A DNA stretch of 64,000 nucleotides, taken from NCBI GenBank assembly GCA_028287305.1, contig JAQBPX010000002.1, positions 248,001-312,000 of the forward strand, in the 5' to 3' direction. Each line of letters opens with the position of its first letter. Within the stretch, counting starts at the first letter, position 1. A program made the translations under genes and the position numbers. Under the pieces are notes generated by a model, which was given only the letters and a program-made list of their open reading frames with translations, searched no databases and was not told the origin of the DNA. Shown one piece after another: positions 15,280 through 17,574 of the stretch. The stretch is from Gemmatimonadota bacterium (lineage in GTDB: Bacteria; Gemmatimonadota; Gemmatimonadetes; Gemmatimonadales; Gemmatimonadaceae).

Positions 15280-15633
15280 ATGCTCGCCTCTGACCAGCTC
15301 AGCCTCACCTTTGCGGCGCTCGCCGACCCCACGCGCCGCGCCATCCTCGCGCGGCTCGCGAAGGGCGACGCGACCGTTGGGGACCTCGCCGAGCCCTTCG
15401 ACATGAGCCTGCCAGCGGTGTCGAGGCACCTCAAGGTGCTGCAGCGTGCCGGGCTCATCTCCCAGGGACGCGAGGCACAGTGGCGCCCCTGCCGCATCGA
15501 GCCGAAGCGCCTCAAGGAAGTGAACGACTGGACCGAGCGCTATCGCGCGGTCTGGGAAGAGCGGTTCGACAAGCTCGACAGCTACCTGCAAAAACTTCAA
15601 CACAAGGAGAAGTCCCGTGCCCGCAAGCGCTAG
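15280..15633 (+). CDS. ArsR family winged-helix repressor
   Basis: 117 residues. The winged helix covers ~10-85: ALADPTRRAILARLAKGDAT, DLAEPFDMSLPAVSRHLKVL as the recognition region, then the wing GREAQWRPCRI. No Cys pair for metal sensing is present (the single Cys is in the wing), so this belongs to the non-metal ArsR group often paired with SRPBCC proteins. It overlaps the following AHSA1-domain gene by 17 bp, and a tandem repeat directly before its start probably serves as its operator. The C-terminus is highly basic. Confidence 0.93.
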   Translation: MLASDQLSLTFAALADPTRRAILARLAKGDATVGDLAEPFDMSLPAVSRHLKVLQRAGLISQGREAQWRPCRIEPKRLKEVNDWTERYRAVWEERFDKLDSYLQKLQHKEKSRARKR

Positions 15634-16102
15634 CAGTTCCACCTCCACCACCGCCGATCGCGAGATCATCCTGTCGCGCACCTTCAAGGCGCCGCGCGCG
15701 CTCGTGTGGCAGGCCTGGACAGTTCCCGAGCACTTCGCGCAGTGGATGGGGCCGCGCGGCTACACGATCACCGTGCAGAACCTCGACGTCCGCGTGGGTG
15801 GTGTGTCGCGCTACGTGATGCATGGGCCCGATGGCACCGACTACATGAACGTTGCCGAGTACACCGACGTGGTGCCGCGCGAGCGACTGGCGTACAAGCT
15901 CGGGGACGCCGAGCCCCCCGATCCGCACGCTTTCGACGTGTCCGTCAACTTCTCGGGACCTGACTCGGCCACCACGGTGACGATGACGATGGTGTTCCCG
16001 TCGGTCGAGGCGTGCGAAGCGGTGAAGTCGTTCGGCGCCGTGGAGCTCGGCAAGACCACGCTGGAAAAGCTCGGGGAGCTTCTCGATCGGCTGTCAGCCT
16101 GA
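15617..16102 (+). CDS. SRPBCC / AHSA1-domain protein
   Basis: 161 residues from a GTG start at 15617; an AAGGAG ribosome-binding site lies 8 nt upstream, inside the ArsR gene. The START-like helix-grip fold is marked by SRTFKAPRALVWQAWTVPEH at ~21-40, the FAQWMGPRGY loop and the long C-terminal helix ending LEKLGELLDRLSA. AHSA1-type proteins in bacteria bind hydrophobic ligands; the link to Hsp90 in the family name is historical. Co-transcription with an ArsR repressor suggests that the ligand or the stress it relieves controls the operon. Confidence 0.92.
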   Translation: MPASASSSTSTTADREIILSRTFKAPRALVWQAWTVPEHFAQWMGPRGYTITVQNLDVRVGGVSRYVMHGPDGTDYMNVAEYTDVVPRERLAYKLGDAEPPDPHAFDVSVNFSGPDSATTVTMTMVFPSVEACEAVKSFGAVELGKTTLEKLGELLDRLSA

Positions 16103-16116
16103 ACCACCCTGCTGTC

Positions 16117-16155
16117 ATCCTTCGCCGCGCCGTCATCCAGAGCGAAGCGAAGGAT
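16117..16155. repeat. Short inverted repeat resembling a dispersed intergenic motif
   Basis: ATCCTTCGC (16117-16125) pairs with GCGAAGGAT (16147-16155). The core GAGCGAAGCGAAGGATCT resembles short dispersed repeats that I recall from intergenic regions of many bacterial genomes, but I cannot confirm this here. It lies just after the AHSA1 gene and could help end its transcript. Confidence 0.45.
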
Positions 16156-16195
16156 CTGCAGTTCGCTTTCACTGAAACAGCCAAACAGCAACCGC

Positions 16196-16296
16196 CTTGA
16201 GCCACGGGTTGCACTGAGCCGCTGCGCGGCTGACACAGCCATGTGATCGCCGTGTCGCGCCTGCGAAGCAGGCGCCCGTGAAACCCGTGGCTCGAG
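16196..16296. repeat. 101-bp multi-hairpin foldback element
   Basis: A 15-bp outer stem (16196-16210 with 16282-16296, one G-T wobble) encloses two perfect hairpins: AGCCGC/GCGGCT with a TGC loop (16217-16231) and GCGCCTGC/GCAGGCGC with a GAA loop (16257-16275). A weaker ACAC/GTGT pairing (16233-16255) sits between them. It lies between the stops of two convergent genes. It could be a bidirectional terminator, a structured RNA, or a mobile palindromic element. Confidence 0.75.
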
Positions 16297-16317
16297 TCAG
16301 TTGTAGTTGAGGCAATT

Positions 16318-17574
16318 TCAGTGCAGGTCCGCCGCCCGCGCGAGAAGCAGCCCTTTCTCGCGCGCGTTGCGCGTCAGCCCTGCCGCCCGCACGAACTCCG
16401 CACGCGCTTCCTCTGTTCTCCCAAGCCTCGCGAGCAAGTCCCCGCGCACGCTCGGCAGCAGGTGGTAGTGCTTGAGCGAAGGCTCGCCGAGCAACTCGTC
16501 CACCACCGCGAGTCCCGCTTCCGCCCCGAACGCGAACGACAGCGCGACCGCCCGGTTCAGTTCCACGATCGGGGACGGCGCCAGTTCCGCGAGCGCATCG
16601 TAGAGCGCCGCAATCCGCTGCCAGTCGGTATCGGCCGCCACCGCCGCCCGAGCGTGGCACGCCGCAATCGCCGCCTGTAGCGCGTAGGGCCCCAGCGCCC
16701 CGCCCACGGCCTCCGCGCGCGCTAGGGCCGTGAACCCACGCTGGATCAGCACATGGTCCCATCGCGTGCGGTTCTGCTCGAGCAGCAGGATCGGCTCGCC
16801 GTCCCGCCCCACGCGCGCTCGCGATCGCGACGACTGGATCTCCATGAGCGCCACCAGCCCGTGCACCTCGCCCTCCGCGGGCACCAGCTCGGCCAGGATG
16901 CGACCCAGCCGCAGCGCGTCCTCACAGAGCGCCGGTCGCATCCAGTCTTCGCCGGCAGTCGCCGAGTAGCCCTCGTTGAACACGAGGTAGATCACCTGGA
17001 GCACCGATCCCAGGCGCGCCGCGAACTCCTCACCGCGCGGCACCTCGAACGGCACGCGGGCCTCGGCGAGCGTTCGCTTGGCGCGCACGATCCGCTGCGC
17101 CACGGTGGACTCCGACACCAGGAACGCGCGCGCGATCTCCTCGGTCGTGAGCCCGCCCAGCAGCCGCAACGTGAGCGCGACGCGAGCCTCCGTCGCCAGC
17201 ACGGGGTGACATGCCGTGAACACGAGCCGCAACAGCTCGTCGCCGATCTCGTCATCGATCGCGCTGTCGAGGTCGGGCGTCGCACGTTCCAGCGATTCCA
17301 TCTCGCGCGCGATCACCTCGTGCTTCCGGTCGAGCATCTTGTGGCGCCGCAGGCGGTCCAGCGCGCCATGCTTGGCGGTCGCCATCAGCCACGCGCCGGG
17401 GTTCGCCGGCACGCCCTCTTCAGGCCACTGTTTCAGCGCTGCAAGCAATGCGTCCTGCGCCAGGTCCTCGGCCAGGCCCACGTCGCGCACGATGCGCGCG
17501 AGCGCCGCGATCAGCCGCGCCGACTCGATGCGCCAGACCGCGTCGATCGCGCGGTGGGTATCGGATACGCCCAC
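16318..17574 (-). CDS. RNA polymerase sigma factor, ECF42-type
   Basis: 418 residues from a GTG start. Region sigma-2 lies at ~10-80 (DVGLAEDLAQDALLAALKQW, then GAWLMATAKHGALDRLRR) and sigma-4 at ~125-180 (LRLLGGLTTEEIARAFLVSE, then VAQRIVRAKRTL). The ~230-residue C-terminal extension (EGYSATAGEDW, then PYALQAAIAACHARA and LNRAVALSFAFG) is helical and TPR-like, the mark of the ECF42 group. These have no membrane anti-sigma factor; the extension and a DGPF protein encoded alongside are thought to regulate them. The DGPF gene sits 21 bp upstream on the same strand. Confidence 0.93.
   Translation of the reverse strand: MGVSDTHRAIDAVWRIESARLIAALARIVRDVGLAEDLAQDALLAALKQWPEEGVPANPGAWLMATAKHGALDRLRRHKMLDRKHEVIAREMESLERATPDLDSAIDDEIGDELLRLVFTACHPVLATEARVALTLRLLGGLTTEEIARAFLVSESTVAQRIVRAKRTLAEARVPFEVPRGEEFAARLGSVLQVIYLVFNEGYSATAGEDWMRPALCEDALRLGRILAELVPAEGEVHGLVALMEIQSSRSRARVGRDGEPILLLEQNRTRWDHVLIQRGFTALARAEAVGGALGPYALQAAIAACHARAAVAADTDWQRIAALYDALAELAPSPIVELNRAVALSFAFGAEAGLAVVDELLGEPSLKHYHLLPSVRGDLLARLGRTEEARAEFVRAAGLTRNAREKGLLLARAADLH

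Follow-up and report, generated by a model that had tools for sequence, protein, structure and literature searches.

The element analysed here lies in the window, i.e., the whole 64-kb stretch of DNA that was examined, between a gene for an AHSA1-domain protein and a gene for a sigma-70/DUF6596 protein (Table 1). Genes were called with a hexamer-based model made for this analysis, by which 92% of the window is coding. The original prediction had described positions 16196-16296 as a 101-nt multi-hairpin structure between convergent genes, and both the convergent arrangement and the plan of the fold were borne out. Folding reproduced the plan exactly: 15 consecutive outer pairs are followed by one mismatch and 3 more pairs, and the stem encloses two hairpins with 3-nt loops (6 bp and 8 bp) as well as a weak middle arm of 5+2 bp. 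The plus-strand folding energy of this interval is -64.9 kcal/mol, compared with -39.6 +/- 3.3 for shuffled sequences (z -7.7; none of 200 shuffles reaches it). The minus strand is as stable as the plus strand (-67.4, z -8.6), which is what a DNA palindrome would be expected to show.

Table 1. Features at the locus of the palindromic element (positions in the window)
Feature	Position	Strand	Description
AHSA1-domain protein gene	15617-16102	+	ends at 16102; convergent with the sigma-70/DUF6596 gene
Separate short repeat	16133-16157	+	TCATCCAGAGCGAAGCGAAGGATCT; abuts the A-arm of the element
Complete palindromic element	16170-16323		154 bp, ends CACTGAAA / TTTCAGTG; borders from alignment of 20 near full-length copies
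Left unit	16170-16233	+	A-arm CACTGAAACAGCC..., closing-stem arm GAGCCACGGGTT, hairpin 1; unit model R1 E 3.4e-22, own genome
Closing stem, left strand	16196-16210	+	15 bp; fold
Lateral hairpin 1	16217-16231	+	6 bp, 3-nt loop; fold
Weak middle arm	16232-16256	+	GACAC...GTGTC; folds; position matches inner stem and apex of the long sub-family
Right unit (B-arm)	16257-16323	-	inverted relative to the left unit; unit model R1 E 5.5e-19
Lateral hairpin 2	16257-16275	+	8 bp, loop GAA; fold
Closing stem, right strand	16282-16296	+	15 bp; fold
Sigma-70/DUF6596 protein gene	16318-17574	-	ends at 16318

The predicted interval is the core of the element but too narrow: the alignment on which the borders in Table 1 are based extends the repeat on both sides, and the opposite-strand blastn self-match of the window copy spans the same 154 bp. 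Past these borders the flanks of the 20 aligned copies are unrelated, except that another repeat is often found on one side. The sigma-factor gene ends within the window element: its last codon and TGA stop are the final six bases of the element (16318-16323; minus-strand CACTGA), and the claim of a stretch devoid of coding content therefore fails for the full repeat. At least two copies, this one and L022:3195-3200, contribute a stop codon (TGA) to the adjacent gene through their terminal CACTGA. No second copy of the palindromic family was found within the 64-kb window. An Rfam covariance-model search of the whole window gave 0 matches at the gathering threshold, and positions 15900-16500 gave sub-threshold matches only.

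The original prediction had proposed a homology search of intergenic regions in Gemmatimonadota. The DNA of positions 16150-16340 had no blastn match in 39 other genomes from its family and order (1/40, own genome only) but proved to be repeated in its own genome: of the 75 matches to the same query there, about 20 are near full length and 80-91% identical to the window copy; no match was found in the plasmids of PLSDB. We used two unit models, R1, built from aligned half-elements, and R2, built from units of an older sub-family described below. In the own genome R1 found 113 half-element units at E<=0.1 (103 at E<=0.001) and R2 found 109. A profile search of the loci fetched around all but three weak R1 units yielded 113 units, consisting of 48 inverted pairs and 17 solo units; the copies are related to one another and these counts are not independent events. 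Within a unit, a small GC-rich hairpin, closed by C-G and with a TNC loop (GNA on the other strand), comes after a conserved stretch, GAGCCACGGGTTKCAC or, in the older sub-family, GAGACACGGATTTCAC, through which the two units of an element pair. In the alignment the half-elements share CACTGAAAC...CAACWGC...CTTGAGCCACGGGTTKCAC ahead of the hairpin. Because two inverted units pair and each carries its own hairpin, either strand is predicted to be able to fold into a cross or clover. Words resembling CAACTG or GTTGC occur in variable numbers in the outer arms, for instance at L033 and L038, as if these arms grew or shrank by small stepwise tandem changes.

The copies fall into two sets that we label younger and older, labels which are drawn from diversity and not from a dated tree. 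Members of the younger set, which includes the window copy, are mostly 148-162 bp long and have GAGCCACGGGTT stems. The older set is more diverse, with GAGACACGGATTTCAC stems and often an inner stem CACACGGGTAC.../...GTACCCGTGTG. Lengths of 179-235 bp, together with an apical hairpin that has A and T runs at its sides, are found in many older members and in a few copies with the younger stem. We infer that the weak middle arm of the window copy is a remnant of the inner stem and apex of the older members; this copy may have lost the apical hairpin of the long sub-family, or may never have had one. In three copies (L012:4281-4434, L017:971-1124 and L026:3459-3612) the core is inverted, i.e., the hairpins and the middle are reversed relative to unchanged outer arms.

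Structural conservation was assessed in 94 regex-defined units, 44 older and 50 younger, after removal of 3 chance matches from 97. With one mismatch allowed, a hairpin follows the stem motif in every one of them (44/44 older, 50/50 younger), and the hairpin is perfect in 90/94 units compared with 437/4700 shuffled controls. There are 19 distinct hairpin 5' arms in the older units, all C-G closed, and 12 in the younger. The loop is TNC in 32/44 older and 44/50 younger units but in only 6/271 hairpins of shuffled sequences; DNA mini-hairpins with GNA loops, the form that TNC takes on the other strand, are exceptionally stable. In the older hairpin helix (six pairs in 43 aligned older units) 88.6% of the cells are paired and 62 cells are changed on both sides. 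The covariation score of these hairpins is 0.628 versus 0.178 +/- 0.029, a value reached by 0/500 shuffles, and sliding the partner strand lowers the pairing to 30-56%. The covariance analysis that the original prediction called for thus shows lateral hairpins maintained by compensatory change among copies. G-U intermediates are nearly absent (a one-sided change in only 1/254 cells), a sign that it may be as DNA that the fold is important or is repaired.

The covariation is weak among the 23 full-length copies (term -0.6) because these descend from one recent ancestor, and the strong signal is that of the older sub-family. In the closing stem, the bases at positions 2 and 8 change in step on the two arms among 35 pairs (C/C 17 and A/A 16 at one, G/G 18 and A/A 16 at the other), which reflects a few events only. 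The two arms of one element are 90.1% identical, compared with 85.9% between elements, a slight excess equalled in 2/5000 permutations.

Whether the structure is conserved has to be considered separately for the copies and for the locus. The suggestion of a conserved element more structured than a simple terminator was right in that the structure is real and undergoes compensatory changes and the window copy carries no intrinsic-terminator signature, but the conservation is found among dispersed copies in one genome and not at the orthologous locus. At 30 orthologous sigma-gene loci, of which only the part with a correct reading frame was used, and this for the C-terminus only, no like element was picked out downstream; the convergent neighbour of the sigma-factor gene is not conserved in relatives, nor is the downstream gene order kept.

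A second repeat, TCATCCTGAGCGNAGCGARGGATCT (the TCATCC repeat), of which Table 1 lists the copy next to the window element, occurs at 124 places in the genome at <=3 mismatches, compared with 0 for a reversed control pattern. It lies <=75 bp from 18/48 paired elements versus 13 of at most 2000 random places, and it reads toward the element in all 18 cases, one of which also has a copy that reads outward. In the L012 and L017 inverted-core copies the adjoining TCATCC repeat remains on the same arm, and the L026 copy has no such repeat nearby. The repeat looks REP-like, with a 5-bp stem and an internal loop, and often abuts the A-arm; its first letters are GTC, with A, C or G before them in the copies looked at, and it has some likeness to the CGTC type.

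The copies mostly sit just 3' of genes. The gaps that hold the 48 paired elements are convergent in 26 cases, tandem in 19 and divergent in 2, and one element overlaps a gene, whereas the background of 240 element-free neighbouring gene pairs comprises 33 convergent, 165 tandem and 42 divergent pairs. The convergent enrichment (odds 7.8, p 5e-9; p 2e-7 against gaps >=20 bp) is accompanied by depletion in divergent, promoter-side gaps (p 2e-4), and the copies occur in every orientation relative to the neighbouring genes. We also considered that the convergent bias might be inherited from the TCATCC repeat as a target site; this was unsupported, since of 11 such repeats lying >=200 bp from any unit in the fetched loci (a small number) only 1 is in a convergent gap.

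Faint relatives of the repeat also occur in other genomes. R1 matches were found in 5/148 genomes of the taxonomic family and R2 matches in 24/179 family genomes representing 9/35 genera, the own genome being included in both counts. In a phylum sample R2 matched 10/395 genomes at E<=1e-4, nine of them of the family and one from another family of the order. Many R2 matches outside the own genome are long simple palindromes of CACGGA-type words that have no lateral hairpins, and a few are evidently due to chance (L097 lies in a coding region and L098 is nearly identical to it). Among 23 relative loci looked at more closely, 19 are flanked by a called gene on either side and are not crossed by any gene, and 9 of these 19 are convergent. 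Long palindromes with 28-45 paired bases and repeated CACGGA/ATCCGTG words were seen at L091, L099, L101, L106, L113 and L088, and the palindromes at L106 and L108 take up all of the intergenic space from one convergent stop codon to the other. A degenerate pattern of the older unit matched a single contig in 84,980 species genomes (from which the own and near genomes were possibly excluded), in a Schlesneria MAG (CAMAYU010000279.1, L085).

The strong convergent bias of the paired elements raises the question of whether the family could be one of functional bidirectional transcription terminators, kept between convergent genes to stop transcription both ways. Several comparisons point in this direction: elements of >=170 bp, in which apical hairpins lie between A/T runs, are convergent in 14/19 cases versus 12/29 for shorter ones (p 0.04), elements with a terminator-like site are convergent in 8/9 cases versus 18/39 for the others (p 0.03), and nearly half of the relative loci with two called flanks are convergent as well. 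However, avoidance of promoters alone yields the same convergent bias, and the terminator-like sites themselves are not in excess over the family as a whole. Taken together, the 48 elements are at chance (11 sites on 96 strands versus 11.6 expected), neither the window copy nor any of the 29 short elements has an intrinsic-terminator-like site (0/58 strands, with 6.45 expected from shuffles), and only the 19 long elements exceed chance, modestly, with 11/38 strands versus 5.15 expected. We consider terminator function of the family possible but rather doubtful; for the window copy, which has no T run and around which 0 terminators were found in 15600-16900, we reject it, and the idea survives only for the long sub-family.

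Another alternative is a miniature inverted-repeat element that a classical DDE transposase would move by cut and paste through its CACTGAAA ends. The terminal inverted repeats CACTGAAA / TTTCAGTG are present in most of the 20 copies and the border with the unrelated flanks is sharp, as such an element would have it. Nevertheless we regard this origin as unlikely, given that no target-site duplications were seen by eye in the flanks of the 20 copies, that the outer arms are imperfect and of variable length, and that the internal stem rather than the tips is the most conserved part. Least probable of all is a structured RNA, either a small RNA or a 3'-UTR element, selected for its RNA fold: the very stable fold on both strands and the strong covariation of the lateral hairpins would suit it, but the strand symmetry and the scarcity of G-U wobble speak for a palindromic DNA element and against a dedicated small RNA, copies lie in all orientations to their neighbours, no promoter-like site was found in 15600-16900 (sigma-70 consensus only), and Rfam at its gathering threshold identifies no known RNA family. 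As a structured RNA of a single locus the element was rejected as the main reading, its sequence being repeated genome-wide with both strands folding equally.

The explanation that we favor, with a probability of roughly 0.7, is that the window element belongs to a dispersed family of palindromic repeats that are non-autonomous and REPIN-like. We infer its mobility from copy number alone, the comparison having covered genomes of other genera. Such a repeat would have spread as DNA, and a recombinase or the replication machinery may act on the fold itself. The repeat might be tolerated at the 3' ends of genes because insertion would be least harmful there, where it would give transcripts from either side a stable 3' hairpin, and the long sub-family with its apical hairpin between A and T runs may also terminate transcription bidirectionally. 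The REPIN-like layout notwithstanding, the family cannot be filed as a REPIN/RAYT system because a search for the Y1 transposase (PF01797) gave 0 candidates in the own genome (completeness 100), compared with 5/14 control genomes positive; REPIN/RAYT proper was rejected on this ground.

Our best reading is that the family is previously undescribed and that its kind, a small, non-coding and probably mobile repeat, is already known. None of the papers searched contains the motif strings of the repeats, and none mentions both Gemmatimonas and repetitive extragenic palindromic sequences. ERIC, Nemis/Correia, RUP and BOX elements are non-coding, dispersed, intergenic imperfect palindromes of 100-200 bp. 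Compared by description only, they share the size and the intergenic palindrome plan with our family; to our knowledge, lateral hairpins with 3-nt loops and core inversions are not features of these elements.

More speculatively, and with less conviction than doubt, we propose that the cross-shaped DNA fold, i.e., the pairing arms with two mini-hairpins of GNA-type loop, could be the substrate of a non-Y1 recombinase or of replication template switching. Such a process would account for the spread of the element, for hairpins that stay perfect, for the inverted cores and for the position of copies at convergent 3' ends, where older, longer members would have become bidirectional terminators. 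If true, this would amount to a REPIN-like lifestyle without RAYT in this lineage. The covarying hairpins with their fixed loops and the core inversions offer concrete ways to test which DNA fold is recognised. The case also calls for caution: strong structure in the gap between convergent genes can belong to a repeat and not to a regulatory RNA.

The likeness to the REPIN/RAYT system (PMC3116915) consists of inverted pairs of palindromic units around a spacer, intergenic dispersal, and solo units that are likely remnants. Both a hairpin and an alternative 'clover' fold are described there for REPIN doublets, and the cross-shaped fold of our family corresponds to the latter (PMC3116915). Compared with the same description (PMC3116915), our family differs in having units of ~65 bp rather than REPs of 20-40 bp, a 12-15-bp stem between the units, no Y1/RAYT gene and no GTAG seen. 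The unit hairpin is preceded by CAC(T/G)G and followed by (G)ACAC, and neither GTAG nor CGTC tags were seen there in the unit lists by eye. With the GTAG/CGTC REPs (PMC3733652) the family shares short-loop stem-loops, head-to-head dimers and a position at gene 3' ends; the preference of those REPs for gaps near gene 3' ends with convergent or unidirectional neighbours is the same as that of our copies (PMC3733652). Unlike them, the palindromic family has a conserved CACGGRTTKCAC part and a cross-shaped dimer; the string 'Gemmatimon' is nowhere in PMC3733652. The CGTC-tagged REP families also seem to be without a dedicated transposase (PMC3733652). REP-like repeats have mostly been studied alongside RAYT, and a sizeable, still well-formed family in a genome that looks complete and has no Y1 raises the question of its mobiliser, just as the CGTC-tagged REPs do.
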